Positions 8,639 to 53,396 of a stretch of 64,000 bases of DNA are shown piece after piece. How positions within the stretch are numbered: position 1 is the first letter of the stretch; every line of letters starts with the position of its first letter. Source of the stretch: Pseudomonadota bacterium (GTDB lineage: Bacteria > Desulfobacterota > Binatia > Binatales > Binataceae); NCBI GenBank assembly GCA_021324885.1, contig JAJPIF010000030.1, positions 1 to 64,000 on the forward strand, written 5' to 3'. The position numbers and the translations under genes are program-made. The notes beneath the pieces are model-generated. The model saw only the letters and a program-made list of their open reading frames with translations. It did not search any database and was not told the origin of the DNA.

Positions 8639-8795
8639 CAGCGCGGGATGCCGGGGCTGCCCCGCACGAACCAGGGCGATGCGTGCGCGGCGCAAACTTG
8701 TTAACCTAAGAGCAACGCACGCTTTGGAGCGTTCCTCAAGGAGTCTGCTTGTCGTACAATTTTACCCTCGGTTCCCCGCAATCACCGTCTGCACC

Positions 8796-9680
8796 ATGGC
8801 CGAAACCGTGAAAGAACGCGATATGACACACAGCCAGGTTGAGGCATCCTATCCTGGTCTGGCGCAAGTCAAAGCCATCGTCGCGTTCGCCAGCGCCAAA
8901 GGTGGAACCGGCAAAAGCACCATTGTTGCGAATATCGCGGCTGCCCTCGCGCTCAAGGGCCGCAAAGTCGGCATCGTTGACGGGGACCTCGACGCGCCCA
9001 GTATCGCTCCGATGTTGGGATTGCCGCGCGTGCGTCTGACCCAGACCCAAGGGGGGTTTGAACCCGCCAGCGGTCCACTTGGAATTCGCCTGGTCGCCAA
9101 TGATCCTCTGCAGGCTGAGACTCCGGTGGTCTTTGCGCTCGACAGCTCGCACCCAGAACCCTTCGACGTCCCATCGGAGAGTCAGTTTGGGCACTTCGCG
9201 TCGGTAGAGGATTTGATCGGGCGGACGCGCTTTGGCACGCTCGATCTGCTGGTGGTGGATTTGCCGCCGGGTTTCAAGCATGCGGTTCAGTTATCCGAAT
9301 CGATCCGGCAGGCAGGCGTGGTAATAGTGTTGCCGTCCTCGGCGGCGGGCGCCATGGCGGTGCGTCAGGCCTTGCTGCAGGCGCGCCGTAAACAGATGAG
9401 AATCCTGGGCCTGATCGAAAATATGGCCGGCTTTTATTGCGGCAACTGCCATTCAGTGCGACCGCTGCTGCCGTCGGCGGATATCAGCGCGCTGGCCCGC
9501 GATTTCGACCTGCCCATCCTCGGGCGCTTTCCCTTCGATCCGCGCCTGGCCGAAGCGTGCGACACCGGTCGCGCATTCCTGCGTGAATATCCGGACCTGC
9601 CGCTGAGCAAGCTGCTGAACGAAGCCGCACAGACGCTGCTGACGGCAACCTCGGCATCCACCGCCGCGTCTCGCGTATGA
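8796..9680 (+). CDS. Mrp/NBP35-like P-loop ATPase (ParA superfamily)
   Basis: From ATG 8796 the product is 294 residues. A deviant Walker A, KGGTGKST, lies at residues 35-42, followed by GIVDGDLDAPSIAPMLG, the typical D-x-D-x-x-x-P-S signature of Mrp/NBP35 iron-sulfur carriers. LLVVDLPPG is the Walker A' region. A C-x-x-C (YCGNCHS) near residue 214 is where Mrp proteins bind a bridging Fe-S cluster. The likely role is Fe-S cluster transfer. A MinD/ParA-type partitioning role is less likely because of the CxxC. An upstream in-frame extension would run through the preceding gene and is rejected; ATG 8823 is another possible start. Confidence 0.85.
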   Translation: MAETVKERDMTHSQVEASYPGLAQVKAIVAFASAKGGTGKSTIVANIAAALALKGRKVGIVDGDLDAPSIAPMLGLPRVRLTQTQGGFEPASGPLGIRLVANDPLQAETPVVFALDSSHPEPFDVPSESQFGHFASVEDLIGRTRFGTLDLLVVDLPPGFKHAVQLSESIRQAGVVIVLPSSAAGAMAVRQALLQARRKQMRILGLIENMAGFYCGNCHSVRPLLPSADISALARDFDLPILGRFPFDPRLAEACDTGRAFLREYPDLPLSKLLNEAAQTLLTATSASTAASRV

Positions 9681-9946
9681 CGCGCTGTTTTCCACGCGGA
9701 GCCGATATGCGCCAGCGGGCGGATTGAGCGCGGATCCTGACGTCTAGAAGCTCGCGCTGCCCCTTGGGAAAGCAAGCGGAACCGTACGCAGGGATAAGGA
9801 TGTACCGGCTTGACTTAAAGGACTCGGCAGTCGCTATCAATCACGCATCAACGCGGTGTTACGCTCTGATATGGAGACACATCGGAGGCGGGAATGAACC
9901 ATTGGTGGTTCGTGCCGGCCAGCGCCACCACTATCGGCTTGGTCGG

Positions 9947-11695: not shown

Positions 11696-12437
11696 GCGCG
11701 TGGCTTCGATACATTACCCATTTGGTCCAGGCGTGCAGCACTATTGACATGATCAGATAGTACCCTATGAAGCTGAACGATATCCAAACGATGAAGTGAT
11801 TCGGTTTGCGCAAGGTAACCAGCAGATAGGCCACAAGGACCGCCCAGATCAAGCTCAAAGTTATGGTCAGGCGGCGCAGCAGTTCGGTGCGGCTTGGATA
11901 GATGTACTTGATTGGCACGAATACCATCACGGCGAAGCCGGCCAGGATTACAGCATTCACAAAAGGTTGCAGGTCGAACAGATAAAGATAAAACGCTGCC
12001 AGGTTCCAGTACGATGGGAAGCCCAGAAAGTAATGATCGGGAGTTTTGGCATTGGTCCGGCAAAAGCCGTAGGCGCTGGAGAGCAGAATCGCCGCGATAA
12101 CCACGTAGCCCCACGTTCCGCCCGGAACTATTCCGGCGACCAGCATCAGGTAAGCCGGCGCGACGACGTAGGTGAGATAATCGACGATGTTGTCGAGCAA
12201 AGCGCCGTCAAAATTCGGGATTCGTGTTTTGACCTCGGCATAACGCGCCAGCACGCCGTCGCTCGAATCGATGGCGGTCGCAATCGCCATCATAACGAAA
12301 GATGCGCGGAAGCGATGTTCAGCGGCCGCCGCGATCGCAAGCAGGCCGATGAATGCGCCCGACGCGGTGTAGGCATGGACCAGCCAGCCAAGAATTGTAA
12401 GTGCGGTTTCCCTTGAGAATAGCCGGCTGCGGCTCAC
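11679..12437 (-). CDS. pcs: Phosphatidylcholine synthase
   Basis: Membrane CDP-alcohol phosphatidyltransferase that condenses CDP-diacylglycerol with choline. The signature D60-G-x2-A-R65-x12-G78-x3-D82-x3-D86 is intact, with the longer spacing and the FDGALLDNIVDYLTYV wording typical of Pcs rather than PgsA or PssA. The FLGFPSYWNLAAFYLY segment also matches Pcs. There are about seven to eight hydrophobic segments in 252 residues, the usual size. Phosphatidylcholine as a bulk lipid fits bacteria that take up choline. It lies upstream of, and overlaps, the amidohydrolase-like gene. Confidence 0.88.
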   Translation of the reverse strand: MSRSRLFSRETALTILGWLVHAYTASGAFIGLLAIAAAAEHRFRASFVMMAIATAIDSSDGVLARYAEVKTRIPNFDGALLDNIVDYLTYVVAPAYLMLVAGIVPGGTWGYVVIAAILLSSAYGFCRTNAKTPDHYFLGFPSYWNLAAFYLYLFDLQPFVNAVILAGFAVMVFVPIKYIYPSRTELLRRLTITLSLIWAVLVAYLLVTLRKPNHFIVWISFSFIGYYLIMSIVLHAWTKWVMYRSHAHERQA

Positions 12438-15844: not shown

Positions 15845-18304
15845 TTACACTAGCACCTTGTCGTCATGCAGGCGCTGGATCTCTGCTTCTGAATAGTCCA
15901 GCAAATCGCGCAGGATCGAATCGGTATCGGCGCCGAGGACCGGGGCGGCCTTGCGGACGCGGCAGGGAGTTGCGGACATTTTCCAGGCAATGCCGGCGTG
16001 GATGTGCGTGCCTGCCACCGGATGCGGCAACTGGACATGGTAGCCGCGTGCCCTCATGTGCGGATCCTCGACCAAATCCCTGGGACCCAAGGTGGGAAAG
16101 GCGGCGATGCCGGCGGCTTGCAGCGTGTCGGCGATCTCCCAGCGATCGCGCGAGATGGTCCACGCTTCGATGATGCGGTCCAGTTCCGCTTCGTTGCGCT
16201 TGCGCAGGGCGGCGGTCGCAAAGCGCGGGTCGGAGGCCAAATCGGGTTGCCCGATTGCGTTGCACAGCGCGCGCCATTCCTGCTCATTGCCGGCCGCGAT
16301 GGTCACCCACATATGCTCGTTGCCGCGCGCTTTGTAGCAGTTGTGCGGCGCGATCCATCGATCGTGATTTCCCATCGGCTGCGGCAGGCGCCGGTTGACC
16401 GCGTATTCGAGCAGGGCTTCCGGGATGATGCTCAAGACCGACTCCAGCATCGCGAGATCGATATGCTGGCCCTCCCCGGTGCGCGCGCGGTGGATCAGCG
16501 CGGCGACGACCGCCAATGCTCCGAACATCCCTGATGTCGGATCGGGATAAGCCATCCCGCTGCTGCGCGTGCGCATCCCGGGATAGCCGTTAACCAGCGT
16601 GAATCCCGATACCGCCTCGATCAACGCGCCGAAGCTCAGATGGGTACTGTAGGGACCGCTCTGGCCGTAGCCCGACATCGAGAGCATCACGAGGTCGGGC
16701 CTGATTTGTTTCAACGTTTCGTATCCCAGGCCCATGCGCGCGATCGACCCGGCGGCGAAATTTTCCACGACCACATCGCAATGACGCACCAGTTGGCGCG
16801 TGATTTCGACCGCGCGCGGATTGGCCAGGTCCAGGGCGATGCTGCGCTTGCCCTGGTTCCATTGATTGAAGCCGCCGGCGCGATTCAAATCCCGGATATC
16901 GTCGGCCATCGGCAGCGTGTTGCGGTACATGCAGGGACGGCGCGCGCTCTCCACCCGGATCACGTCGGCGCCGAGATGGGCCAGTTGCAGGGCCGCATAC
17001 GGACCAGCCCAGACCCAGGTGAAATCGAGCACGCGGATCGCGGCCAGCGGTCCGCAATCGGCACCGGTGGACGCAGACTGCTGTTGCGCGGGTTCGCCCC
17101 CGGTCCAGGCCGTCGCGCGATCATGATCAAAGAAAAGATCATTGTGCTCGCCCAGACGCGGCGCCCCGCGATTTCCTGGTTTGACGGCGAGCAGGCGCAG
17201 AGCCGAAGCAGGAACTTCGATTTCGCGTTGCGCGCCAAGGGGGACTGCAACGAAGGCGCGGCGCTCGCGCAGATGCGCATTGGTGTAAACGTCGGCCACG
17301 GTGTTGACGCGCTCGATCGGGGCCGGCAGTTGCTGCATGGCGCGGCACAAATCCTCGACCTTCCAATGCGCCGTCCATTCCGAGACCTTTTGCTTGATCA
17401 TCTCGCCGTGAGTGACCCGCCCGAAGGCATCCTTGAGGCTGTCATCGAGTGCCCATGGTGGATTGCCCATGAACTCCACGAAACGCCGCCAGATGTGATC
17501 GCCGTAGATGGTCATCAGGACCTTGCCGTCGGCGCATTGGAAAACGTCGGCTGGCTGCGGATTGAATCTCCCGCCCAGGCGCGTGATCTCCTTGCCCGCG
17601 TAGCTGTAAAAAGGCCAGTTCAGTTCGATCATCGGCGCCAGGCATTCCTGCTGCGAAACGTCGATCACTTGTCCGCGCCCGGTGCCGAGCCGATACAGAT
17701 AAGCCGCGAGCGTGACCATCGCGCAATGGACGCCGCCCTGGAAGTCAGCCTGATGACCAAACAGTTTCACCGGTGCTTGCGAAGGATCCGAACCGGCCGC
17801 ATTGGCCGACGCCAATCCGCCCGCGTGTTGCACGTTGAGATCGCAGGCGCGCAGGTTGGCGCGCGGCCCGCTGTCGCCAAAGGGCGAAATCGTGCTGACG
17901 ATCAGATGCGGAAACGAAGCGGCCAGCACACCGCTGTCAAGCCCCAATGCGCGGCGGTCCACGGGCAGCACGTTGTGAATCAGGATGTCGGCATCGGCAA
18001 GCAAACCGGCGAACCGATCGCGATCCGACGCCGATTGCAGGTCGAGCGTAACTCCCAGCTTGTTGGCGTTGAGGTAAGCGAACAGGCCGCTTGCTTCGGG
18101 GTCTGGCTTGTCGCCGGGAAACGGGCCGCGAAATCTGGTGAGGTCGCCCTGCGGCGGTTCGACCTTTATGACTTCGGCTCCCAGGTCACAGAGCAGTTTG
18201 GCCGCGAATGCCGCGCTGACGCCTTCGCCGCATTCGACCACGCGCGCTGCGGCAAGCGGTCCCGACGCGGCCGTACTGTTCGCTGCGCTCGATAAATTTG
18301 CCAT
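15845..18304 (-). CDS. Double-domain CaiB/BaiF CoA-transferase, both catalytic Asp present
   Basis: An 819-residue protein made of two full class III CoA-transferase units joined by a Gln/Ser-rich linker near residues 400-418. Unit 1 (about 15-395) has LLCDLGAEVIKVEPPQGD and D187 (HQADFQGG). Unit 2 (about 418-819) has AHLGADVIRVESARR, VVENFAAGSIARMGLGYE and D588 (AYPDPTSG). Both Asp residues align with the catalytic Asp169 of formyl-CoA transferase. Single-domain members form interlocked dimers, so this looks like a covalent dimer. The gene is divergent from an SDR and zinc dehydrogenase operon. Acceptor acid unknown. Confidence 0.93.
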   Translation of the reverse strand: MANLSSAANSTAASGPLAAARVVECGEGVSAAFAAKLLCDLGAEVIKVEPPQGDLTRFRGPFPGDKPDPEASGLFAYLNANKLGVTLDLQSASDRDRFAGLLADADILIHNVLPVDRRALGLDSGVLAASFPHLIVSTISPFGDSGPRANLRACDLNVQHAGGLASANAAGSDPSQAPVKLFGHQADFQGGVHCAMVTLAAYLYRLGTGRGQVIDVSQQECLAPMIELNWPFYSYAGKEITRLGGRFNPQPADVFQCADGKVLMTIYGDHIWRRFVEFMGNPPWALDDSLKDAFGRVTHGEMIKQKVSEWTAHWKVEDLCRAMQQLPAPIERVNTVADVYTNAHLRERRAFVAVPLGAQREIEVPASALRLLAVKPGNRGAPRLGEHNDLFFDHDRATAWTGGEPAQQQSASTGADCGPLAAIRVLDFTWVWAGPYAALQLAHLGADVIRVESARRPCMYRNTLPMADDIRDLNRAGGFNQWNQGKRSIALDLANPRAVEITRQLVRHCDVVVENFAAGSIARMGLGYETLKQIRPDLVMLSMSGYGQSGPYSTHLSFGALIEAVSGFTLVNGYPGMRTRSSGMAYPDPTSGMFGALAVVAALIHRARTGEGQHIDLAMLESVLSIIPEALLEYAVNRRLPQPMGNHDRWIAPHNCYKARGNEHMWVTIAAGNEQEWRALCNAIGQPDLASDPRFATAALRKRNEAELDRIIEAWTISRDRWEIADTLQAAGIAAFPTLGPRDLVEDPHMRARGYHVQLPHPVAGTHIHAGIAWKMSATPCRVRKAAPVLGADTDSILRDLLDYSEAEIQRLHDDKVLV

Positions 18305-31474: not shown

Positions 31475-31671
31475 CCGCAACTTCTGTGGGCAAGCAGTTC
31501 TGCGACGCGTCGGTTGTGCGGCTTTGCAGAAGCTGGCCCGCGATTGGGAAACGGCGATAGCGCGACCGTCCGGGTGTTGAAATCAGGGGCGTTTTGTTCA
31601 ATCTTGCCCGTGACCGCACAACGTTTTTGCGTTCGGTAGTTGCGGCCCCGCGCCGCTTGTGGGAGAGATCG

Positions 31672-32922
31672 ATGGCCAACGGATTCCTGTTTGACGTTCG
31701 CGTGATCGAGCTGGGTGATGAGAAAGGGGATTTCTGCGGCAAGCTGTTTGCCGGCGCCGGTGCGGACGTGATCAAAGTCGAGCCGCCGGGCGGCAGCCCG
31801 TCGCGCCAGATCGGACCGTTTTACAAGGACACCCCGGACCCCGAGCGCAGTCTCTACTTCTGGCACTACAACCTGGCCAAACGCGGCATTACGCTGGACT
31901 ACGCCTCGCCGCAGGGGCTGGAGCTTTTGCGCAAGCTGATCGGTAACGCCACCGTGCTGCTGGACACGACCCCGCTCGATACGCTGGAAAACCTGGGTCT
32001 GGACTGGACAGCCCTGCAAAAAATTAATCCCGGCCTGGTGTACGTGCGAATCACACCGTTCGGCCGCAGCGGGCCGTGGCGCGATTTCAAAGCCACCGAC
32101 CTGGTCCATCTGGCGCTGGGCGGCGAGATGATGCTGTGCGGCTATGATCCCAGGCCCGACGGCGTTTACGACACTCCGCCGATTGCGCCGCAGATGTGGC
32201 ATGCATGGCATATCACCGGAAATCAGGCCTTTATCGCCGCGATTGCCGCATTATTCGCCCGTGCGGACACGGGAGTAGGCGACATGATCGATATACCAGT
32301 CCATCAGGCCGTCAGCGTCTGCACCGAAGTGGACATCCCATATTGGATCTATGCGAAAACGGCGTGCCTGCGGCAGACCGGCAGACATGGATTTCCCGTG
32401 ATCGGTCCGCCCTCGCAGCACAAAGCGAAAAACGGCCGTTACTGCAACGTCGTGGCCAATCCGTTTCCCGGCGGTCGCGAGACCATGATCCAATTTCTGC
32501 GGGAGCTTGGGCTGCAGGGCGACCTCGACGACGACAAATACAAGGACCCGGCTAACCTCGTCGGATTCGAGTTTGTGCAACATTTCGCTCAGGTTCAGGC
32601 ACAGGCGGTGGCTGCGTTCGATGCTGAAGACCTGTGGCGAAAGGCCCAGGACCGCGGCATCCCGTGGGTCCCGGTGCGCCATCCCGAGGAAAATCTGGAC
32701 GACGAGCAATGGAAGACCCGCGGCACCTTCGGCGATGTACACCATCCGGAATTGGGCGAGACGCTGCGCTACGCAATCGCGCCGACAAGGGCCGAGGAAT
32801 GCCCCTGGCGGATGGGTCCGCGCGCTCCGCTGATTGGCGAGCATAATGAAGCCGTATTCTGCGGCGAGTTGGGGCTGTCGCGCGATGAGCTTCGCCGCCT
32901 CAAGGAAGCGCGCGTTATCTAG
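31672..32922 (+). CDS. CaiB/BaiF CoA-transferase, subunit lacking the catalytic Asp
   Basis: A 416-residue class III CoA-transferase homologue (AGAGADVIKVEPPGGSPSR, LYFWHYNLAKRGITLDY, INPGLVYVRITPFG, T-G-V-G-D-M-I-D-I). Counting 25 residues back from that last motif, where family members have the catalytic Asp, gives W179 (QMWHAWHITG). The equivalent of formyl-CoA transferase Asp169 is therefore missing. The next gene, 21 bases downstream, is a homologue that keeps the Asp. The pair resembles BbsE/BbsF of benzylsuccinate CoA-transferase. ATG 31672 has GGGAGAG about six bases upstream. Upstream ORF extension rejected. Confidence 0.88.
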   Translation: MANGFLFDVRVIELGDEKGDFCGKLFAGAGADVIKVEPPGGSPSRQIGPFYKDTPDPERSLYFWHYNLAKRGITLDYASPQGLELLRKLIGNATVLLDTTPLDTLENLGLDWTALQKINPGLVYVRITPFGRSGPWRDFKATDLVHLALGGEMMLCGYDPRPDGVYDTPPIAPQMWHAWHITGNQAFIAAIAALFARADTGVGDMIDIPVHQAVSVCTEVDIPYWIYAKTACLRQTGRHGFPVIGPPSQHKAKNGRYCNVVANPFPGGRETMIQFLRELGLQGDLDDDKYKDPANLVGFEFVQHFAQVQAQAVAAFDAEDLWRKAQDRGIPWVPVRHPEENLDDEQWKTRGTFGDVHHPELGETLRYAIAPTRAEECPWRMGPRAPLIGEHNEAVFCGELGLSRDELRRLKEARVI

Positions 32923-32943
32923 GCCGGAGAGGAGGAAAAAGCC

Positions 32944-34200
32944 GTGAGACCACTTCAGGGTGTGCGAATTCTGGACCTGACCTGGCTGCTGGCTGGAGCC
33001 GGCGGTCCGCGACTGCTGGCGGCACTCGGCGCCGAGGTGATCCGTCTGGAATGGCGCGACCGCCTCGATTTTCTACGCTACAGTCCGCCCGTAATTCCAG
33101 TTGAAGGAGCCACGGAATCGCGGCGCGAGATGAAAAGCGTCAACCGCGGCGGGCTCTTCAACGATAACAATCCCGGCAAGAGAAGCTTCAGCCTCAATAT
33201 GGCTCATCCCAAGGGCAAGGAGATTTTCAAGCGCCTGGTCACGCTCAGCGACGTGGTCGTCGAATCCTTCCGCGCCGACGCCATGACCAAGTGGGGGCTG
33301 GGCTACGAAGTGCTGCGCTCGCTCAAGCCCGACATCATCTATGTGCAGCAATCAGGATGGGGCCACAAAGGACCGTATTGGAAGTATGCCTCTTATGGTC
33401 CGATTGCGCAGGGAATCAGCGGGCTTACCGATCAGTCGGGCTTGCCCGAGCCGTATCCGCCCGCGGGATGGGGCTATTCCTACATGGATTGGAGCGGCGC
33501 CTACTACACGGCGATCTCGATGCTGCTGGCGCTATATTACAAAAAGCGCACCGGCAAGGGACAATACATCGACGGTTCCCAAATCGAGCCTGCCATCTTC
33601 ATGACTGGCACTGCAATTCTGGATTACCTGGTCAACGGACGACATTGGCAGCGGACCGGCAATCGGGCGCCGTATAAGCCGGCGGCGCCGCACGGCGCGT
33701 ACCGATGCGAAGGCGCCGATCGATGGATCGCGATCGCGGTGAGCAGCGACGCCGAATGGCGCGCATTGGTCGCTGAGATGGGAACTCCCGCATGGGCGCG
33801 CGATCCTAAATTCGCCACGCTGGCCACGCGTATCATTAATCAGGACGAACTCGACGCCCGTATCAGCGAATGGACGCGCAGCCAGGAGCCGTTCGCGCTT
33901 CAGGATCGCTTGCAGAAAGCGGGAATCGCCGCGGGTGTTTGCCAGACCAGTCAGGATCGGGTCGAGCGTGACCCGCAGCTTAAGCACCTGAAGTGGCTGA
34001 TTCCGCTGCCCAACGCAGAGGTGGGAACCTGGCCGATCAAGGACGTGCCCTTCCATTTCACCAGGGCCACGGTCGATCAGGGCGGGCCGATCGGACGCGC
34101 ATCACCCTGCTACGGCGAAGACAATGACTACGTCTATGGCGAGTTGTTGAAAATGTCCAAGGAGCAACGCGCGCAATTGGAGCAGGAAGGCGTGATTTGA
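32944..34200 (+). CDS. CaiB/BaiF CoA-transferase, catalytic subunit of a pair
   Basis: A 418-residue class III CoA-transferase. It keeps D182 (SYMDWSGAYY) at the catalytic position and has LGAEVIRLEWRDR, FNDNNPGKRSFSLNM, VVESFRADAMTKWGLGYEVL and T-G-K-G-Q-Y-I-D-G. Start is GTG 32944 behind a strong GGAGAGGAGG. It follows the Asp-lacking homologue by 21 bases, so a heteromer is likely. It is longer at the N-terminal half than its neighbour. The substrate pair is unknown; BbsEF handles succinyl-CoA and benzylsuccinate. Confidence 0.93.
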   Translation: MRPLQGVRILDLTWLLAGAGGPRLLAALGAEVIRLEWRDRLDFLRYSPPVIPVEGATESRREMKSVNRGGLFNDNNPGKRSFSLNMAHPKGKEIFKRLVTLSDVVVESFRADAMTKWGLGYEVLRSLKPDIIYVQQSGWGHKGPYWKYASYGPIAQGISGLTDQSGLPEPYPPAGWGYSYMDWSGAYYTAISMLLALYYKKRTGKGQYIDGSQIEPAIFMTGTAILDYLVNGRHWQRTGNRAPYKPAAPHGAYRCEGADRWIAIAVSSDAEWRALVAEMGTPAWARDPKFATLATRIINQDELDARISEWTRSQEPFALQDRLQKAGIAAGVCQTSQDRVERDPQLKHLKWLIPLPNAEVGTWPIKDVPFHFTRATVDQGGPIGRASPCYGEDNDYVYGELLKMSKEQRAQLEQEGVI

Positions 34201-44492: not shown

Positions 44493-44743
44493 TGGGTCAC
44501 CCTTCGCGCCCGCGACCTCTGATTTGCGCAAGCCATCCTACACGCAGCATGGCCGCTCGCGCCAAGCCCGAAGCGGGACAACCGTGGCGGGCCCGTATGG
44601 GCACGCGCGACGCCTTTCTCGACCCGCTACAATTTTCGGCAAACGCGGGCGCGAACACCCTTGCGCAACCGCATCGAATCTGCGCTACAAAGGAGACGGC
44701 CGCGCGTGCTCGGGATAGGCGCGGCTTGACGAGGTGCGTCATC

Positions 44744-45955
44744 GTGGATCTTTCCAATCAGCCGCTCGCAGGAGTGCGGGTCCTGGACCTGACCCGCCAC
44801 GTGGCCGGGCCGATGTGCACCAAACTGCTCGCCGATTACGGCGCCGATGTAATTAAGATCGAACAGCCGGGGCGCGGCGACCCCGCCCGCTGGATTGGTC
44901 CGTTTGCCGGCGACATTCCCCATCCGGAGCGCAGCGGCTTGTTCCTGCATCTCAATACCAACAAGCGCGGCCTCACCCTCGATCTCAAATCGGGCACCGG
45001 GCGCGAGATATTTCTAAAGCTGGCAAGCCGGGTGGATATCCTGGTCGAGAGTTTTCGCGCCGGGATGATGACTTCGCTCGGCCTGGATTACGCAACTCTT
45101 CGCCAACTCAATCCGCGCCTGGTAATGACCTCGATCAGCAACTTCGGCCAGAGCGGGCCGTATCGCGACTGGAGCGCCTCGGAACTGGTGCTCTACGCGA
45201 TGGGTCACGAGATGTGGGGGACGGGATCGCCCGATGCGGAACCGGCTGGGGTGGCGAACAAGCTCAACCTGCATCTGGCCGGCCAGGCTGCCTGTCTGGC
45301 GACGCTGTCCGTTTATTTCGGCGCGCAACTTTCCGGCCGCGGCCAGCACATCGACTTGTCGATCATGGAAGTGCTGGCTGCGGCGCCCGATCGGCGCGGC
45401 GTCGCGCTGGTTGCTTACCAATACTGCGGTGATCGGCTGCGCCGCCAGCCAGCCGCCCGCGTGCTCGATCCGCCGCCGTTTATGAATCAATGCGCGGACG
45501 GACTCTTCGAGATCCTCGTCGGCATCGATCGCTGGGACGCCTTCGTCCGGGCGGTAGGAGAAGACTGGATCAAGGATCCGAGCTTTAAGCCGCCCGTGCG
45601 CGACCCCATGATAACTGAGCGATTTAATCGGCATTGGCGTCCGTGGGTCATCACCCGAACCAAGCGCGAGCTGACCCAGCGATTTCAGGAGGGCGGTGTG
45701 CCCTGCGCACCGCTCAACACCGTTGCCGATTTGGCCGGCGATGAGCAACTGATGCAGCGAGACTTCTTCGTCGGCATCGATCATCCGTTGGCGGGGCGCC
45801 TGATCTATCCGGGAGCACCGTTCAAGATGAATCAGACCGCATATGTGATTCGCCGGCCGGCGCCGATGCTCGGACAGCACAATGCGGAAATTTTCGGCGG
45901 ACTCGGCTACACCGCCGCCGACCTTGCCGCGCTCAGCGCCAACGCGGTGATCTGA
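44744..45955 (+). CDS. CaiB/BaiF CoA-transferase, subunit lacking the catalytic Asp
   Basis: A 403-residue class III CoA-transferase homologue (LADYGADVIKIEQPGRGDPARW, LNTNKRGLTLDL, VESFRAGMMTSLGLDYATL, S-G-R-G-Q-H-I-D-L). At the catalytic position it has L176 (KLNLHLAGQ), not Asp. Start is GTG 44744 with GAGGTGCGTC upstream; an ATG-free longer frame is rejected. The downstream gene, 24 bases away, keeps the Asp. The pair thus matches the layout at 31672-34200 and BbsE/BbsF-type heteromers. A candidate -10 TACAAT lies at 44628-44633, in the gap to the divergent DUF748 gene. Confidence 0.88.
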   Translation: MDLSNQPLAGVRVLDLTRHVAGPMCTKLLADYGADVIKIEQPGRGDPARWIGPFAGDIPHPERSGLFLHLNTNKRGLTLDLKSGTGREIFLKLASRVDILVESFRAGMMTSLGLDYATLRQLNPRLVMTSISNFGQSGPYRDWSASELVLYAMGHEMWGTGSPDAEPAGVANKLNLHLAGQAACLATLSVYFGAQLSGRGQHIDLSIMEVLAAAPDRRGVALVAYQYCGDRLRRQPAARVLDPPPFMNQCADGLFEILVGIDRWDAFVRAVGEDWIKDPSFKPPVRDPMITERFNRHWRPWVITRTKRELTQRFQEGGVPCAPLNTVADLAGDEQLMQRDFFVGIDHPLAGRLIYPGAPFKMNQTAYVIRRPAPMLGQHNAEIFGGLGYTAADLAALSANAVI

Positions 45956-45979
45956 GCCGCCACAGGGAGTTTTCTGCGA

Positions 45980-47281
45980 ATGAAACGGTTGCCATTGCAG
46001 GGTATTCGGATTCTTGACCTCGGTGTCGTTGCCGCCATTCCATACAGCACGATGGTGCTGGGGGACATGGGCGCCGAAGTCATACGGGTCGAGACCACCC
46101 AGGTTTTTCCCCACCTGACGCGTGGCGTGCTCGCGCGTCCTACTCGTGAACTGGCCAAACAGTGGATCACCACGTCGGGTGGATATCCCAACGATCGTGA
46201 CCCCGGCGAGCGCCCCTGGAACCGCTACCCGTTTTTCAACTACATGGCCCGCAACAAGCTGGGGATGACGGTCGATTTGCGCAAGCCCTCAGGCCGTGAA
46301 GTGTTCGCTCGCCTCGTCCGCATCAGCGACGCCATCATCGAAAACAACACTCCCAGCTCGCTGGAGCGCATGGGAATCACCTACGAATGGCTGTGCGGCA
46401 TCCGGCCTGACATCATTTTCGTGCGCCTGTCCTCCTTCGGCCAAACCGGACCGTATCGCGACTATCGCGCCTTCGGCCTTCAGACCGAATCGTTCTGCGG
46501 CCATGACCTGTTGGGCCGCTACCGCGATCGCGATCCGAGCCACAATTCCTGGGCCGTGCCCTCCGACCATGCGGGCGGGATGAACGCCGCCATCGGATGC
46601 CTGATGGCGCTGATCCGGCGCCGCCGCACGGGCAGGGGCGAACTGGTTGACGTGTCGATGGTCGAGAGTTTCCTCAACGACATCGGCCATATCGTGATGG
46701 ACTACACGATGAACGGGCGCGTGCAGGAAAGTCTCGGTAATCGCGACCGCGACGCCGTGCAGGGAGTATATCGCTGCAAAGGCGATGACCGCTGGGTCGC
46801 CATCACGATCGCCACCGACGAGCACTGGCGCGGCTTTATCCAGGCAGCCGGAAATCCACTCTGGTGCAACGACCGGCGCTTCGGCACCGTATGCGATCGC
46901 ATCCGCAACCAGGACGAGCTCGATCCGCTGATCGAGCGCTGGACCCTGCAATATGAGCATCGCGCAGCCGCGGCGATCCTGCAGCACCACGGCGTCCCCG
47001 CCGGACCCGTCATGGACGACGCCGACGCCTATGAGGATCCGCATCTTAAGGCGCGCGGCTTTTTTGTGCCAATAGAGCAGGCCGACTGCGGAGAGCATCT
47101 GTATCCCGGCCCCGCCTGGAAGCTGTCGGAAACGCCAATCCAGATGCGCCATCCACCCGTCCGTCTGGGCGAGCACAACGAATACATATACAAACAATTG
47201 CTCGGCTACTCAGATCAGGAGTACGAGGAACTGGAACGCGAAGGCCACATCGGCACGGACTACGCCGCGCACATACCGTAG
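45980..47281 (+). CDS. CaiB/BaiF CoA-transferase, catalytic subunit of a pair
   Basis: A 433-residue class III CoA-transferase with GDMGAEVIRVETTQVFPHL, NYMARNKLGMTVDL, ENNTPSSLERMGITYEWL and T-G-R-G-E-L-V-D-V. D196 (VPSDHAGG) is the catalytic Asp by register. AGGGAG lies about ten bases before ATG 45980. The internal insert around residues 45-85 (THLTRGVLARPTRELAKQWITT) is longer than in single-domain paralogues. It is likely the catalytic partner of the upstream Asp-lacking gene. Confidence 0.93.
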   Translation: MKRLPLQGIRILDLGVVAAIPYSTMVLGDMGAEVIRVETTQVFPHLTRGVLARPTRELAKQWITTSGGYPNDRDPGERPWNRYPFFNYMARNKLGMTVDLRKPSGREVFARLVRISDAIIENNTPSSLERMGITYEWLCGIRPDIIFVRLSSFGQTGPYRDYRAFGLQTESFCGHDLLGRYRDRDPSHNSWAVPSDHAGGMNAAIGCLMALIRRRRTGRGELVDVSMVESFLNDIGHIVMDYTMNGRVQESLGNRDRDAVQGVYRCKGDDRWVAITIATDEHWRGFIQAAGNPLWCNDRRFGTVCDRIRNQDELDPLIERWTLQYEHRAAAAILQHHGVPAGPVMDDADAYEDPHLKARGFFVPIEQADCGEHLYPGPAWKLSETPIQMRHPPVRLGEHNEYIYKQLLGYSDQEYEELEREGHIGTDYAAHIP

Positions 47282-47510: not shown

Positions 47511-48188
47511 GTGAGAAGCGTGGCCAAAGGTTCCCGCCGCGGCAGCCTGCGGGTGATCCGGCGCGAACGGCAGAATGAAATCTCGCGGGCGCATATTCTC
47601 GACGCCGCCGAGGATGCCTTTTCCGAAAAAGGCCTGAACGCGACGATTAAGGAAATCGCCGAAATGGCCGAATTCTCGGTCGGCGCCGTCTATATGTTTT
47701 TCGACGGCAAGGACGAGTTGCTCGCCGCGGTCTTCGAGCGCCATACGGACGCGTTTTTACAAACCATGCGCGACGCCGCCGCCGGCGCGGGCAGCGCACC
47801 CGCAAAACTCCATCGCATCTTTGACGCCCAATTCGGCTATTTCCGCAGCCATCCGAAATTCTACAAGCTCTTCGACCAGCTCTGGCGCGTGCGCTCGTGG
47901 GCGCTGCATTTTACTTCGGCCGAGCAAGGCTCCCAATGGTACCGCGAGGCGCTGGAAATTGTGGCGCGGGTGTTTCGCAACGGGATGGCGGCCGGCGAAC
48001 TGATCCAGGGCGACGCGATGGTTCACAGCTCGATCTTCGCCAACATCATCAGCGCGTACATCTCCCACTGGATTTATGAGCTGGCAAGCAAACGCAATGT
48101 CGATATCGATCGGATAGCGCCGGCCTCACAGGTCCATGCGTTAATCGATCGCGCATTCGTCAATCCGCACTCGGCGGATCAGACTTGA
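47511..48188 (+). CDS. TetR-family transcriptional regulator
   Basis: A 225-residue repressor. The N-terminal HTH is ISRAHILDAAEDAFSEKGLNATIKEIAEMAEFSVGAVYMFFDGKDELLAAVFERH, the classic TetR pattern, after an Arg-rich leader (RRGSLRVIRRERQNE). The C-terminal half is a helical ligand-binding domain. GTG 47511 is the ORF start; GTG 47520 is an alternative. It is upstream of the amidohydrolase and in the same direction as the whole catabolic module (48231-53396), which it may control. Confidence 0.9.
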   Translation: MRSVAKGSRRGSLRVIRRERQNEISRAHILDAAEDAFSEKGLNATIKEIAEMAEFSVGAVYMFFDGKDELLAAVFERHTDAFLQTMRDAAAGAGSAPAKLHRIFDAQFGYFRSHPKFYKLFDQLWRVRSWALHFTSAEQGSQWYREALEIVARVFRNGMAAGELIQGDAMVHSSIFANIISAYISHWIYELASKRNVDIDRIAPASQVHALIDRAFVNPHSADQT

Positions 48189-48230
48189 AAATTCACGCAC
48201 TATCCGTGCGGCTAGGAGGCTTTAAGTCCG

Positions 48231-49292
48231 ATGACAGACCAACGGCTGATCTCCTCGGATTCGCACGTGCAGACCACGCACGATGCCGTCAAGCAGCATC
48301 TGGCCAGCAGGTATCACGGCGAATACGACGACGTCATCAGCGCCGAGCAGCGCGCGATTGCGCAGAAGTTCGGCAAGGAGCGGACGGAGCTGGCGCGCAA
48401 GTTCACGCACGAGGCGTGGGGCCGCCCCGGCCATTACGATCCCCACGAACGTCTCAAGGACATGGACCGCGACGGCGTTGACGCCGAAGTGCTCTACTGC
48501 GAGGTTGGCGGCTTCCGCATTTACCACAAGATGAAGGGATGCTGGCGCGAGGCGTTCCAGGCCTTCAACGACACGCTGGTCGATTTCGCCTCCGCAAATC
48601 CGCGCCGTTTGCTGGTCTCCTACCAGATTCCGCTGATCGATATCGATTACGCGGTGAAGGAAGTGGAGCGGCTGGCCCGTCAGGGTGCGCGCTCGGTCCA
48701 GCTTCCCAGCTTCCCCGCCGATTTGGGCCTGCCCGACTATCACGACCATCGCTACGATCCGCTGTGGTCGGTTTTGCAGGAAGCCGGGATTCCGATCAGC
48801 CATCATCTGGAAGTCAAATCATCGTTGGGCGACGTGTACCTGCGCGATCCCACTCCGCAAAAAGGCATCCACAATTCGCTGCCATGCACCGCGCTGGCCG
48901 AAACGCTCGGCTTCTGGATCCTGACCGGCACGCTGGAGCGCTTCCCCAATCTCAGGATCGTGCTGGTCGAGCCGGGACTGGCCTGGATTCCCTTCCAGCT
49001 CGACGTGCTCGACAGCTTTGCTCAGGGCCCATACGATTTTCCGGGACTCAAGGAGCTCCCCAGCTTCTACTTCCATCGCAATTTCTTTCTGACTTTCGTC
49101 GATGACGCCCGCGGCGTGCGGATGCGCCATGAGATCGGCCTGGACAACATCATGTGGTCAACCGACTATCCGCATCCGGCGACTTCGTGGCCGCGCTCGC
49201 GTGAGATCGTGGACCGTCAATTCCAGGGGGTGCCGGCGCAGGAGCGCTACCAGATGGTGTGCGGCAACGCGGCGCGGATCTACGGCTTGTAG
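48231..49292 (+). CDS. Amidohydrolase-2 family protein (metal-dependent hydrolase or decarboxylase)
   Basis: A 353-residue TIM-barrel amidohydrolase. Metal ligands can be placed at D10-x-H12 (SSDSHV), H191/H192 (PISHHLE) and D312 (MWSTDYPHP); E248 in VEPGLAWIP also fits the family. This group includes decarboxylases and C-C or ring-opening hydrolases in aromatic degradation. AGGAGG is 12 bases before ATG 48231. It stands between the TetR gene and the double CoA-transferase, so a role in the same pathway is likely. Confidence 0.9.
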   Translation: MTDQRLISSDSHVQTTHDAVKQHLASRYHGEYDDVISAEQRAIAQKFGKERTELARKFTHEAWGRPGHYDPHERLKDMDRDGVDAEVLYCEVGGFRIYHKMKGCWREAFQAFNDTLVDFASANPRRLLVSYQIPLIDIDYAVKEVERLARQGARSVQLPSFPADLGLPDYHDHRYDPLWSVLQEAGIPISHHLEVKSSLGDVYLRDPTPQKGIHNSLPCTALAETLGFWILTGTLERFPNLRIVLVEPGLAWIPFQLDVLDSFAQGPYDFPGLKELPSFYFHRNFFLTFVDDARGVRMRHEIGLDNIMWSTDYPHPATSWPRSREIVDRQFQGVPAQERYQMVCGNAARIYGL

Positions 49293-49309
49293 GCCTTGGG
49301 AGAAAGCAG

Positions 49310-51835
49310 ATGACTGGCGTACTTGACGGACTCAAGGTGCTCGATCTGTCCTGGGGAATCGCCGGGCCGATGGCCACCATGATGCTTGCCGATCATGGCG
49401 CGAGGGTCACCCGGATCGAGCGGCCCGGCGGCGACCCGTTCGGCTCGCCGTCCGGATATCGGGTATGGAACCGGGGCAAGCGCAGCGCAATCCTCGATCT
49501 CAAGCGCGACACCGATCGCCAATGCCTGCTCGATCTCGCGCGCAGCGCGGATGTGTTGGTGGAAAGCTTCCGGCCGGGGGTGACGCGGCGGCTGGGAATC
49601 GATTACGCCGCGCTCCATCCGCTCAATCCTCGGCTTATCTACTGCTCGATTACCGGCTATGGCCGCGACAACCGCCACAGCACTCGCCCGGGCTACGACG
49701 CTTTGGTGGCTGCGCGCGCGGGTCTGCAATGGGAGCAGCGCGGGTGGCCCGGCACGCCGATGGACCACTTGCTGGGCCGGCTCGGGCCCAATCCCGAGCT
49801 CGAGCCGCCGCCCGGATGCGCGCAAGGCGCCCAGCGCGAGGGACCGCTGTTCATCTATTCGCCGTTCCCCAGCATCGCCGCATGCTACCTCGCCACGCTT
49901 GGAATCAGTTCGGCGCTGCGCGCGCGCGAAATTACCGGACGCGGTCAGTTGGTCGAAACGTCGCTGCTTCAGGGCGCGATGGCCTGCTGCGTCGCCGGCT
50001 GGGCGCGGGTCGAAAATCCCGACGCCGCCAGCTACCGCACCTGGGTGATGGATCGGCGCTCGCCCAAGGGGCTGATGCAATGCCGCGGCGGCCGCTGGGT
50101 CCATCAATGGCCGATCAATCCGTTCGCCGTGGTGGAAGCGGCCAAATCGGATCGTTTGGACGATCTTGCGGAAATTCCGCGCAACCGGGACCATCCGGCG
50201 CGCATCGGGATGGAACCCGAGGAGCTGTCGATCCTCTTCTACTACTATCCGTTGATGACCGAAGCGTTCAGCAAGTTCACCGCCGAGGACTGGGTGCGTT
50301 TCGGCGCGCGGCTCGATGTCGGACTGCAGCCGGTTCGCACGCCGGAAGAAGCCTTGCAGGATCCCGCGCTACTCGCCGACGGCTGCGTGGCTGAAGTCGA
50401 AGATCCGCAACTCGGGCGCATCCGCCACGTCGGCATCGTCTACCAGATGGATCGCAGCCCCGGCCAGATTAAAGGCCCGGCGCCGCGGCCCGGTCAGCAT
50501 ACGCAGGAAGTGCGGGCCGAAGCCGCTTCAGCGGCGCGCGGCAATAGCGCGGCAATTCATCATGGCGGGCGCGCGCTGAGCAGCGCGCTGGAGGGCGTGA
50601 CCGTGATCGATCTGGGGCTCGCGGTGGCGGGACCGTTCGGGCCCAGGATGCTCGCCGACATGGGCGCGTCCGTGATCAAAGTCAACGCGATGTACGACAG
50701 CTACTGGTGGTCCAACCACATGGCGATCGCCGTCAACCGCGGCAAGCGCAGCATCGCGATCGATTTGAAAGACCCGCGTGGACGCGCGATCGTGTACCGG
50801 ATGGTGGAGCGAGCCGACGTGGTCGCGCACAACATGCGTTACGGCGCGCCGGAACGAATCGGGATGGACTACGAGACCCTGCGCAAGATCAACCCGCGCA
50901 TCATCTATTGTCATACGCGCGGCTTCGATCGCGGCCCACGCCTGCGGCTGCCGGGCACCGATCAGAGCGGCGCGGCGCTGGCGGGGATCGAGTACGAAGA
51001 CGGCGGCTGCGCGGACGGGGGGACGCCGTTTTGGAGTCCGACTTCGCTGGGCGATACCGGCAACGGCTTTCTGGCCGCGATCGCGATTGTGCAGGCGCTG
51101 TACGATCGCGAGCGCACTGGCGAGGGTCAGAAGGTGGACGCGGCGATAATCAACGCGTCGCTGCTGACCACGTCGTATGCGTACGTCACCGCCGATGGCA
51201 AAGGGGCGCCGCGTCCTCGTCTGGATAGGATGCAGACGGGCTTGTCCGCCCTGTACCGCCTTTATGAAACCGCCGATGGATGGCTATGCGTTGCGGCGTA
51301 CGAGCAAAAACATTGGCCGCAACTGTGCGCGGCAATCGGCAAGAGCGAATTGTGCACGGATGTACGCTTTGGGACCGCCGCGGCGCGTGCGCAGCACGAT
51401 CGTGAACTGGCGGCGATCCTGGAGCCGATCTTCAAAACGCGGCCGGCGGCCCAATGGTTTGAGCTGCTCGATGGGCGCGGCGTGCCGTGCGAGATCTCCT
51501 CACCCACATTTTCCCAGCAACTGTTTGACGATCCCGACTTTGCGCGCAAGGGATGGACCGTTTCGTATCACCATCGGCACGTTGGCAAACTCGAGGAGAC
51601 CGGTTTGCTCTGCGATCTGTCGGAAACACCGGGAAAGATTCGCGGCCCCGCCGTGCTGTGCGGCGAAAACACGCGCGAGATCCTCGCCGAGCTCGGTTAT
51701 GCGGCGGCGGAAATCGACGATTTGTGCGCCAGCAAAGTCGTACTGGACGGACGCGACCCCAGCGCGGGAGTCGGGATCAAACGCCCGCCGCGCCAGCCCG
51801 CACCAACGGCCGGCAAGGAGGCACGAACTCGATGA
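49310..51835 (+). CDS. Double-domain CaiB/BaiF CoA-transferase with one Asp-lacking half
   Basis: An 841-residue fusion of two class III CoA-transferase units. Unit 1 (about 5-400) has LADHGARVTRIERPGGDPF, VLVESFRPGVTRRLGIDYAAL and T-G-R-G-Q-L-V-E-T, but S188 (PFPSIAACY) replaces the catalytic Asp; a change of the usual V-D-x to V-E-T is also seen. Unit 2 (about 425-841) has ADMGASVIKVNAMYDSYWW and T-G-E-G-Q-K-V-D-A with D582 (SLGDTGNG), the catalytic Asp. Only one half should be catalytic. A C-terminal tail is Pro/Arg-rich. The stop overlaps the next start (ATGA). Confidence 0.93.
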   Translation: MTGVLDGLKVLDLSWGIAGPMATMMLADHGARVTRIERPGGDPFGSPSGYRVWNRGKRSAILDLKRDTDRQCLLDLARSADVLVESFRPGVTRRLGIDYAALHPLNPRLIYCSITGYGRDNRHSTRPGYDALVAARAGLQWEQRGWPGTPMDHLLGRLGPNPELEPPPGCAQGAQREGPLFIYSPFPSIAACYLATLGISSALRAREITGRGQLVETSLLQGAMACCVAGWARVENPDAASYRTWVMDRRSPKGLMQCRGGRWVHQWPINPFAVVEAAKSDRLDDLAEIPRNRDHPARIGMEPEELSILFYYYPLMTEAFSKFTAEDWVRFGARLDVGLQPVRTPEEALQDPALLADGCVAEVEDPQLGRIRHVGIVYQMDRSPGQIKGPAPRPGQHTQEVRAEAASAARGNSAAIHHGGRALSSALEGVTVIDLGLAVAGPFGPRMLADMGASVIKVNAMYDSYWWSNHMAIAVNRGKRSIAIDLKDPRGRAIVYRMVERADVVAHNMRYGAPERIGMDYETLRKINPRIIYCHTRGFDRGPRLRLPGTDQSGAALAGIEYEDGGCADGGTPFWSPTSLGDTGNGFLAAIAIVQALYDRERTGEGQKVDAAIINASLLTTSYAYVTADGKGAPRPRLDRMQTGLSALYRLYETADGWLCVAAYEQKHWPQLCAAIGKSELCTDVRFGTAAARAQHDRELAAILEPIFKTRPAAQWFELLDGRGVPCEISSPTFSQQLFDDPDFARKGWTVSYHHRHVGKLEETGLLCDLSETPGKIRGPAVLCGENTREILAELGYAAAEIDDLCASKVVLDGRDPSAGVGIKRPPRQPAPTAGKEARTR

Positions 51836-52236
51836 AGCGCAGAGTTCCGCTGCCGGTGCGCGACGACCAGTTCTTCTGGGACGGCGTTGCACAGGGCGAA
51901 ATCCGGCTACAGCGATGCGCAGGCTGCGGCAAGCTGCGCCATCCGCCGGGCCCGATCTGCCCCTGGTGCCATAGCCTGGAAGTTCGGATCGAACGCGCAA
52001 GCGGACGGGGAACCGTGTACAGCTACGTCATCCCGCGCCATACCGCGATCGAGTCAGACGGCGATCCGGTCATCGTCGCACTGATCGAACTTGAAGAGGG
52101 GGCGCGGCTGGTTTCCAACTTATGCGGCGTCGCGCCCGATCGGGTTCGCAACGGGATGGCGGTGGAGGTGTTCTTCACCGAATTCGAGGACGGCGTCCGG
52201 CTGCACCAATTCCGTCCGATGGAGGGGTCGGCATGA
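51832..52236 (+). CDS. DUF35 OB-fold protein with N-terminal zinc ribbon
   Basis: A 134-residue protein. It has the DUF35 rubredoxin-like zinc ribbon C29-x2-C32-x10-C43-x2-C46 (RCAGCGKLRHPPGPICPWC) and then the OB-fold (GRGTVYSYVIPRHTAIESDG, VIVALIELEEGARLVSNL, VEVFFTEFEDGVRLHQFRP). In steroid and other acyl-CoA pathways such proteins bind acyl-CoA and partner with thiolase-fold aldolases (ChsH2/Ltp2 type). The next gene is exactly such a protein. Both ends overlap neighbours by four bases (ATGA), implying tight translational coupling. Confidence 0.92.
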   Translation: MKRRVPLPVRDDQFFWDGVAQGEIRLQRCAGCGKLRHPPGPICPWCHSLEVRIERASGRGTVYSYVIPRHTAIESDGDPVIVALIELEEGARLVSNLCGVAPDRVRNGMAVEVFFTEFEDGVRLHQFRPMEGSA

Positions 52237-53396
52237 GCACCGGCCTGGGGGATCGCACCGTCATCGCCGGAATCGGCCAGACCGAGTTTTCCAGAAATTC
52301 CGGACGCAGTGAATTGCAGCTCGCCGCCGAAGCCTCACTCGCCGCGCTCGACGATGCCGGTCTGAGCGTGTGCGACGTGGACGGGATGGTGACGTACACA
52401 CTGGACAGCACGGGCGAGTTTGAGCTGGTGCGCAGCCTGGGTATCAAAGAGCTGCGGTACTACTCGCGTGCGCCGTATGGGGGCGCGGCGACCTGCGCGG
52501 TGGTGCTGCACGCGGCGGCGGCAATCGCCTCCGGCGCGGCCAACGTGGTGCTGATCTACCGCGCCTTCAACGAGCGCTCGGGCCGCCGCTTCGGCCTGCC
52601 CCAGGCCCCCGCGGCGGTATCGTCCAACGGCAGCTACTGGTGGCGATGGTACATTCCGTTCGGCTTGGACACACCGGCCAAATGGGCTGCGCTGCACTTC
52701 CAGCGCTACATGCATGTGTACGGCGTGACCAACGAGGATTTCGGGCTTTACTCAGTGGCGTGCCGCAAGTATGCGGCCAACAATCCCAATGCGTACTTCT
52801 ACCAGCGTCCGATCACGCTGGAGGAGCATCAGAATTCACGATGGATCGTCGAGCCGGTGCTGCGCCTGCTCGACTGCTGCCAGGAAAGCGACGGCGGCGT
52901 GGCGATCGTGATCACCAGCCGCGAGCGCGGACGCGACTTGCGCCATAAGCCGGTAAGAATCGTGGCGGCGGCGCAAAGCGCATTGTGGGGCGGCGACATC
53001 GTTTCGGATTATTACCATGACGATATCTGCGGGATGGCGGAAATCGGCGACATCGCCGCCAAGCTCTGGACCCAATCAGGACTGCGACCCGGGGATATCC
53101 AGGCGGCAATGCTGTACGATCACTTCAGCCCCATCGTGTTCATGCATCTGGAGGAATTCGGCTTCTGCGGCCGCGGCGAGGCGCGCGACTTCATCAAAGA
53201 CGGCAACATCGAAATCGGCGGCGCTCTGCCGGTAAACACGCACGGCGGCCTGCTCGGCGAGGCCTACATCCACGGGCTCAACCACATCAACGAAGGGGTG
53301 CGTCAACTCCGCGGCGCCGCCATCAACCAGTTGCCCAACGTGGAACACGTCTTGGTGAGCGCCGGCATGAGCGGCCTCATCCTGGGCCAAGCCTGA
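52233..53396 (+). CDS. Thiolase-fold protein, probable DUF35-dependent retro-aldolase
   Basis: A 387-residue thiolase-superfamily protein. The thiolase nucleophile position (N-x-x-C-A-S/T-G) reads PYGGAATCAVV, with Gly where the Cys should be. The C-terminal half has YDHFSP (Y295), NTHGG (H337) and GEAYIHGLNHI (Y345), the wording of Ltp2-type proteins, where a tyrosine in this segment is, as I recall, catalytic. It follows a DUF35 gene with a four-base overlap. Together they look like a retro-aldolase cleaving a beta-hydroxyacyl-CoA, not a thiolase. The last visible gene in this operon. Confidence 0.85.
   Translation: MSTGLGDRTVIAGIGQTEFSRNSGRSELQLAAEASLAALDDAGLSVCDVDGMVTYTLDSTGEFELVRSLGIKELRYYSRAPYGGAATCAVVLHAAAAIASGAANVVLIYRAFNERSGRRFGLPQAPAAVSSNGSYWWRWYIPFGLDTPAKWAALHFQRYMHVYGVTNEDFGLYSVACRKYAANNPNAYFYQRPITLEEHQNSRWIVEPVLRLLDCCQESDGGVAIVITSRERGRDLRHKPVRIVAAAQSALWGGDIVSDYYHDDICGMAEIGDIAAKLWTQSGLRPGDIQAAMLYDHFSPIVFMHLEEFGFCGRGEARDFIKDGNIEIGGALPVNTHGGLLGEAYIHGLNHINEGVRQLRGAAINQLPNVEHVLVSAGMSGLILGQA

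Follow-up and report, generated by a model that had tools for sequence, protein, structure and literature searches.

The window analysed here is a stretch of 64,000 nucleotides from a Pseudomonadota bacterium (contig JAJPIF010000030.1 of assembly GCA_021324885.1), in which five genes, all on the + strand, occupy positions 47511-53396 and encode a TetR-family regulator, an amidohydrolase-fold protein, a fused double CoA-transferase, a DUF35 protein and an Ltp2-like protein. TetR aside, the genes form a real unit, for which a catabolic role is considered below. P0001 (47511-48188, GTG start) is the regulator and matches Pfam TetR_N over the cut-off. P0002 (48231-49292) is a member of PF04909 with an Amidohydro_2 match over the cut-off, and it and its relatives are designated AH. 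P0003 (49310-51835, ATG start) is an 841-residue fused double class III CoA-transferase (CoA-T) in which CoA_transf_3 occurs twice in one chain, over the cut-off, the mechanical open reading frame (ORF) beginning farther upstream with a GTG at 49259. P0004 (51832-52236, 134 residues) is a stand-alone DUF35 protein of the ChsH2 C-terminal type with Pfam zf-ChsH2 and OB_ChsH2_C matches over the cut-off, and P0005 (52233-53396) is of the Ltp2 aldolase type, with a thiolase fold and a Thiolase_C_1 match over the cut-off. Gaps of 42 bp and 17 bp separate TetR from AH and AH from CoA-T, and four-base ATGA overlaps connect CoA-T to DUF35 and DUF35 to Ltp2. The coordinates and gene readings thus bear out the compact one-strand run described in the initial annotation.

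Outside the window's genus, 26 stretches were read, around transferase orthologues in relatives of the genome that holds locus L004 and around the copy of L002. Clade orthologues of all four proteins occur together in 13 of these stretches (12 genomes), and three others (L090, L105 and L106) bring the four families together with more distant members. AH and transferase are present in L089, L094 and L103, the stretch of L103 stopping there and the AH of L094 being broken; L084, L096, L099, L101, L102, L104 and L107 are without the set. Within the genus, both relatives (G001 and G002) carry the full set plus TetR, so that the set is found in three genus genomes altogether. A TetR orthologue accompanies it in 3/3 of these genomes and, among the loci read, this association is confined to the genus, a MarR gene often lying near the set in other lineages (six clustered loci as well as L113-L115, L128 and L129). 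The order of the genes varies, with AH first, last or divergent, and in L088 an alpha/beta hydrolase gene stands in between. L003 and L004 display AH and transferase at contig ends, and L127, on another contig of the L003 genome, opens with the tail of a transferase gene, after which come DUF35 and Ltp2. In G463, G461 and G464 the transferase stands alone, the other three genes being grouped as AH-DUF35-Ltp2 at a different place next to a MarR gene, while G466 and G465 are split into two groups, AH with transferase and MarR-DUF35-Ltp2. It is because the full set recurs outside the genus, and because split sets keep some of their parts paired, that AH, CoA-T, DUF35 and Ltp2 are considered a real unit. 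Co-occurrence among the neighbours of orthologues, the check proposed for the candidate module in the initial annotation, is therefore conserved, though the gene order is shuffled. The set apparently recurs in distant bacteria, the distance of the set-bearing genomes from that of the window being judged by record titles and by how similar the proteins are (about 40-63% identity).

A search for the transferase at E ≤ 1e-200 detected it in three genomes among 57 near relatives, with the window genome itself included, and in the window genome alone among 395 sampled from the phylum. At E ≤ 1e-100 it was detected in 22 of 97 relatives of the L004 genome, mostly with 50-58% identity. Across these 97 genomes transferase and AH were both scored in 20, transferase only in 2, AH only in 3 and neither in 72 (Fisher 1.4e-15, shared descent being ignored), in a table for which at most 10 or 21 candidates per genome were scored and which may have missed weaker orthologues. 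Among 23 transferase-bearing genomes, 21 have an AH match and 22 an Ltp2 match (E ≤ 1e-85). Distance matrices of the four proteins correlate with values of 0.55 to 0.92 over 16 loci and 0.51 to 0.92 over 14 loci, reaching 0.80 for AH-CoA-T and 0.92 for DUF35-Ltp2, correlations of which part may be explained by shared species history. Clustering of the neighbouring genes, with a codon-usage filter against antisense ORFs, revealed luciferase-like oxidoreductases, short-chain dehydrogenases/reductases, P450s, acyl-CoA dehydrogenase, enoyl-CoA hydratase and biotin carboxylase beside the orthologues. These neighbours are consistent with breakdown of branched or cyclic acids and point to no particular substrate.

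The two halves of P0003 differ at the catalytic Asp position, which is occupied by Ser188 in the N half and by the conserved Asp582 in the C half. In a first alignment of fused CoA-transferases, the catalytic Asp was present in the C half of 12/12 and in the N half of 0/12, and in four unfused CoA-transferase pairs it was found in one partner and not in the other. An extended alignment of 32 sequences displays Asp in 30 C halves (30/30 visible, two gaps), and Ser in 30, Thr in one and a gap in one of the N halves (Asp in 0/31 visible). The predicted structure of P0003 has a predicted local distance difference test score (pLDDT) of 76.9 and a predicted template modelling score (pTM) of 0.86. 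Structural matches to its C half include formyl-CoA transferase (Z 25.8) and BbsEF (Z 24.7), and one row of the list, an alpha-methylacyl-CoA racemase (Z 21.4), aligns with the N half. BbsEF, the succinyl-CoA:(R)-benzylsuccinate CoA-transferase (PDB codes 9fn0 and 9fol), presents the same class III domain pair with one catalytic Asp: Asp178 of chain B, the adduct of which is named in the title of 9fol, aligns with the Asp of P0006, and chain A has a Tyr at the matching column, its nearest Asp lying four columns before. In P0003, however, both domains are joined in one 841-residue chain and there is no bbs-type operon, whereas BbsEF consists of two subunits. P0003 is thus a fused BbsEF-type CoA-transferase. 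The asymmetry noticed in the initial annotation is confirmed and, with the catalytic Asp kept in the C half, the acid-activating role suggested there remains the probable one, P0003 being the putative activating step.

Fused relatives of P0003 were also identified in nine plasmid records (Rhodococcus, Mycobacterium, Sphingopyxis and Sinorhizobium). As in the window, one gene spans most of P0003 (at least 80% covered) and an annotated amidohydrolase is present in three of the four stretches read from these nine records. They differ in their low identity (29-32% for the transferases, 24-29% for the AHs) and in that the four stretches hold no close four-gene set. DddD is another known fused transferase. 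A literature search for a fused class III CoA-transferase with an inactive half found nothing. The initial annotation had regarded the combination with a fused asymmetric CoA-transferase as unfamiliar from described steroid or aromatic pathways; the transferase itself is less novel than this suggests, the one-Asp asymmetry being known from the two chains of BbsEF and the fusion having distant relatives on plasmids. On the Mycobacterium branderi plasmid (L110, 7920-17948), a single 18-kb stretch brings together remote relatives of the four families, among which the Ltp2-like relative consists of two separate ORFs that are not listed in the plasmid gene table.

With 574 bits, P0005 exceeds the cut-off of NCBIfam PRK07855 (469), and its best PDB relative is the Ltp2 of 6ok1 (485.6 bits), the steroid aldolase of Thermomonospora curvata, while the best PDB relative of P0004 is 6ok1_B, the ChsH2 partner chain of the Ltp2 entry. 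In TcLtp2 the Tyr of the YDHF motif is described as the base, the YDHF His as the oxyanion hole and Tyr344 as the acid (PMC12329534). Alignment of the 16 full-set loci revealed that Tyr295 of the YDHF motif and Tyr345, the counterpart of TcLtp2 Tyr344, are both kept in 16/16, the YDHF His being kept in 13/16 (Asn in two, Ala in one). The column of the thiolase nucleophile, defined by Cys89 of an annotated thiolase of L109, is Gly in 16/16. A Cys located four columns past it in 4/16 (the window trio and L108), and also in TcLtp2, does not occupy the place of the thiolase nucleophile. The zinc-ribbon cysteines of P0004 (C29, C32, C43 and C46; Cys-x2-Cys-x10-Cys-x2-Cys) are all retained in 16/16 loci. 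Since both catalytic Tyr residues are kept and Gly stands at the thiolase Cys column, the assignment of P0005, with its DUF35 partner, as a probable retro-aldolase is well supported, in agreement with the retro-aldol cleavage to which the DUF35 and Ltp2-like pair had been assigned in the initial annotation.

These residues bear on a different scheme, in which the CoA-transferase would activate a dicarboxylic acid and the DUF35-thiolase pair would thiolyse a 3-oxoacyl-CoA, in the manner of BbsEF and BbsAB. BbsEF shares the one-Asp asymmetry and BbsAB is likewise a DUF35-thiolase pair, but the scores fall far below the cut-offs of both BbsA (28.4 bits, with 250 required) and BbsB (114 bits, with 750 required), the nucleophile Cys is replaced by Gly, the Tyr residues of the aldolase are kept, and the set is without a dehydrogenase or hydratase gene. 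A thiolase of the BbsAB type was thus rejected, and the scheme as a whole is disfavoured and very improbable.

The closest known systems to the retro-aldolase pair are the steroid aldolases Ltp2-ChsH2 and, grouped with it, CtSal-Shy of Comamonas. The pair of the window shares with Ltp2-ChsH2 the fold, the Cys4 zinc-ribbon DUF35 partner, both catalytic Tyr residues and the Gly in place of the thiolase Cys. The steroid igr operon encodes ChsE1E2-ChsH1H2-Ltp2, comprising an acyl-CoA dehydrogenase pair and a MaoC domain fused to DUF35. This contrasts with the locus described here, where P0004 is a bare DUF35 protein that lacks a MaoC domain and where, instead of the dehydrogenase pair and hydratase, an AH and a fused CoA-transferase are encoded; neither an igr-type dehydrogenase pair nor a MaoC-DUF35 fusion was found among the 27 window proteins scanned, which do not comprise every window ORF. 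The module Ltp2s form a clade (support 94/90, not starred) in a tree built from 32 selected Ltp2 rows, and the adjoining branch holds L123, L124 and L125. The Ltp2s of L123 and L124 have as neighbours a pair of acyl-CoA dehydrogenases and a DUF35 to which a FAS1/MaoC-like hydratase is fused, and this igr-like layout occurs in the related genomes G466 and G465.

The high Ltp2 similarity, together with the igr-like loci of these related genomes, would suit a steroid or bile-acid side-chain module with igr chemistry, for which the genome would encode dehydrogenase and hydratase at another place and in which the AH would have no part. The igr-like Ltp2s nevertheless fall on a branch separate from the module clade, and an AH orthologue is present in 20/22 CoA-T-bearing genomes, which leaves such a module most unlikely. 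Chiefly because the neighbouring igr-like Ltp2s have dehydrogenases and a hydratase-DUF35 fusion, whereas the module has a bare DUF35 protein and an AH, we infer that the AH may supply the β-hydroxyl group on which the aldolase would act.

PF04909, a family of >100,000 proteins, includes the amidohydrolase-related dinuclear oxygenases (AROs), as described in PMC10811679. In two members the metal ligands are given as Asp25, His27, His211, Glu265, Asp337 and His340 (AibH2; PMC7782822) and as D11, H13, H197, E252, D320 and H323 (LynB7; PMC10127204). P0002 displays the same three His and three carboxylates, D10, H12, H192, E247, D312 and H315. Within the AH clade, D10 and H12 are present in 20/20 visible sequences, one being truncated, and H192, E247, D312 and H315 in 21/21; the six ligands are kept in 28/28 PF04909 proteins of a wider set. 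Two aligned decarboxylases have His at the E247 position and Tyr or Phe at the H315 position. A profile of five clade members finds first PtmU3 (146.6 bits, nearly full length), which is described as a dinuclear hydroxylase of diterpenoid-CoA, and second DitZ (140.8 bits), with decarboxylases from 78.9 bits down. The closest fold matches of the P0002 model are DitZ (Z 20.9), 8sm8 (Z 19.7) and PtmU3 (Z 19.7), followed by AibH and SfbO/TruffO entries to Z 18.2. Twelve of the top 13 rows are DitZ, PtmU3, AibH or SfbO/TruffO entries, the exception being 4dzi, an unassigned amidohydrolase (Z 19.3). The initial annotation had assigned the AH a hydrolytic or decarboxylating step; with metal ligands and best solved relatives being those of dinuclear oxygenases, hydroxylation is the better reading. 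The host genome has four COX1 matches over the cut-off, and use of O2 is therefore plausible.

The proposal that emerges is that of a catabolic module shortening acids unsuited to normal β-oxidation by CoA activation, O2-dependent β-hydroxylation and retro-aldol cleavage, for which the chances appear evenly balanced. The sequences display at most a conserved four-gene set in which the aldolase and the dinuclear ligands are intact and the transferase is asymmetric, and from the domains, catalytic residues and gene associations we infer the reactions, their order and the β position. In a first step, the fused CoA-transferase would move CoA from a donor thioester to the acid through Asp582, with the N half as structural partner. 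The AH, with a dinuclear Fe/Fe or Mn/Fe site, would then hydroxylate the β carbon of the acyl-CoA using O2. Finally, DUF35-Ltp2 would cleave the β-hydroxyacyl-CoA, with Tyr295 as base and Tyr345 as acid, releasing a ketone or aldehyde together with acetyl- or propionyl-CoA, a thioester that might act as the next CoA donor. More tentative, with somewhat less than an even chance, is the specific suggestion that an AH-fold dinuclear oxygenase sets the β-hydroxyl directly with O2, tertiary carbons included. What the steroid igr route achieves with a pair of acyl-CoA dehydrogenases and a MaoC hydratase would thus fall, ahead of retro-aldol cleavage, to one oxygenase. The substrates may, as a guess, be branched, terpenoid or steroid-like acids.

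If correct, the proposal would join two enzyme groups, the AH-fold dinuclear oxygenases and the DUF35-Ltp2 aldolases, for which a literature search found no paper bringing them together, nor any on a gene cluster of amidohydrolase, CoA-transferase and DUF35. It would provide a short activate-hydroxylate-cleave route for acids with a tertiary β carbon, at which oxidation to a ketone is therefore impossible, as in terpenoids, steroids and branched hydrocarbons, and would assign a reaction to one clade of the very large and mostly unassigned PF04909.

A number of observations weigh against this proposal, several of which concern the AH itself. The P0002 model is of modest confidence (pLDDT 61, pTM 0.70), and the Z scores of decarboxylases (17.7 and below) are close to those of the oxygenases (18.2-20.9). 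Two residues past the last ligand His, known AROs present a second-sphere acid (PtmU3 Glu313, AibH2 Asp342, LynB7 Asp325), a residue that is important for AROs and is not established as class-defining. The 21 clade members instead have Val (11), Ala (5), Ile (3) or Cys (2), with Ala317 in P0002, while the acid is present in 10/12 other host AHs, those of fetched stretches that were aligned. In AibH2, the D342A replacement is reported to diminish activity (PMC10401708). A nearby Rieske or reductase gene is a bioinformatic marker of AROs, though not known for all of them. A Rieske search of the genome gave seven matches, none on the window's contig, and a Pfam scan found no Rieske/ferredoxin or other redox partner among 19 representatives of recurring neighbour clusters. 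P0002 and its clade thus resemble PtmU3, AibH2, SfbO and the solved relative DitZ in their TIM-barrel PF04909 fold, six metal ligands and best solved relatives, and differ in the hydrophobic residue or Cys that takes the place of the second-sphere acid, in the lack of a Rieske partner gene among those found and in being encoded beside an aldolase and a fused transferase. Since the second-sphere acid has been lost in the clade and its replacement diminishes AibH2 activity, P0002 is here termed only putatively ARO-like, and established ARO membership is not claimed. The loss of the acid may reflect a change in the metal pair or in the chemistry with O2.

The same observations lend some weight to the view that the aldolase is correctly identified and the AH is a hydrolase, hydratase or decarboxylase, opening a lactone or ring or removing a carboxyl group, with the β-hydroxyl originating from an enzyme encoded elsewhere. 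Besides monooxygenases, PF04909 includes carboxylases, hydratases and hydrolases (PMC10811679), an acid is found at the second-sphere position in 0/21 of the clade, no redox partner was found nearby in the neighbour and Rieske searches, and the best decarboxylase Z score is just 0.5 short of the lowest oxygenase row and 3.2 short of the highest. Such an AH would nonetheless have kept all six dinuclear ligands, including the Glu and the His that are replaced by His and by Tyr/Phe in the two aligned decarboxylases, and would match PtmU3 and DitZ in sequence far more strongly than any listed decarboxylase. It is possible, if on the unlikely side.

Gene associations also weigh on both sides of the β-hydroxylation proposal. 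The 4.5-Mb host genome contains 24 Ltp2 matches, about 106 merged P0002 matches and 80 merged P0003 regions, 21 of which exceed 2 kb; ten weak partial rows of 122 were left out of the P0003 match list. Fragments were merged within 300 bp, which misses real pairs such as that at 44.7-47.3 kb of the window, not counted as double, and the proximity tests span 4,401,504 of 4,533,256 positions. Within 5 kb, any CoA-T lies near an AH in 27/80 cases (17.07 expected, p 0.0055; p 0.0375 at 3 kb and 0.12-0.18 up to 1.5 kb) and a double CoA-T in 11/21 (4.86 expected, p 0.0045; p 0.10-0.14 up to 3 kb). Proximity of AH to Ltp2 is not above chance (7/24 within 5 kb, 4.98 expected, p 0.21; p 0.21-0.45 over the distances tested), and neither is that of Ltp2 to a double CoA-T (p 0.09-0.40) or to any CoA-T (p 0.07-0.42). 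The mostly non-significant proximity results from the sheer number of P0002 and P0003 regions in this genome. The triple of double CoA-T, AH and Ltp2 within 3 kb was observed in 3/21 against 0.21 expected, in a test that was selected once the count had been seen and with the genome treated as one circle of uniform positions. Further adverse points are the absence of an adjoining AH-clade gene from the CoA-T orthologues of L084, L090, L096, L099, L101, L102 and L104, the bare DUF35 protein of L125, where Ltp2 is accompanied by another fused CoA-T and a dehydrogenase and no AH match, and L122, which lies inside the module Ltp2 clade and whose stretch holds no AH-clade gene, the AH and transferase relatives there being remote. 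To these is added a second, divergent AH and fused CoA-T pair (L042, G000:C13:33100-53000, at 8747-12422; 65% and 56-57% identity), with no DUF35 or Ltp2 in its 20-kb stretch.

This C13 copy, an AH and CoA-T lacking aldolase genes nearby, would suit an AH that is a dinuclear oxygenase acting at another position or on another compound (at the α carbon, on a ring or by oxidative decarboxylation), within the pathway and not feeding the aldolase directly. LynB7, an ARO, is indeed called an oxidative decarboxylase (PMC10127204), and additional AH orthologues of G510 and G466 (L117 and L118) are accompanied by genes for P450 and acyl-CoA dehydrogenase, with Ltp2 absent from the stretches fetched. 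However, AH, DUF35 and Ltp2 have stayed together in three genomes from which the CoA-T has moved away, suggesting a direct metabolic link, and an oxygenase of this kind appears improbable. The β-hydroxylating AH remains the preferred reading.

Other arrangements of these families were observed. In L044 (7778-13026) and L106 (3203-8450) the set is unfused, two CoA-transferase genes lying side by side with DUF35, Ltp2 and AH. In L094 an AH orthologue with an in-frame stop (3051-4160) adjoins an intact CoA-T. The fused CoA-T of L096, L099 and L101, and also of L089 and L094, is located beside an acyl-CoA dehydrogenase and major facilitator superfamily (MFS) group, most of these groups also comprising genes for enoyl-CoA hydratase, biotin carboxylase and carboxyltransferase. 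The set is carried by records bearing the names Bifidobacterium breve (L002/L108) and Spirochaeta sp. (L004), labels that appear doubtful given such gene content. Within the window, two separate class III CoA-transferases at 44735-47281, one of which keeps the catalytic Asp while the other is without it, resemble the BbsEF chains. This pair ends 229 bp before TetR and was rejected as a member of the unit, being missing at that place in the two genus relatives L040 and L041. More fused or paired CoA-transferase matches, interleaved with housekeeping genes, are located at 15845-18304 and 31594-34200.

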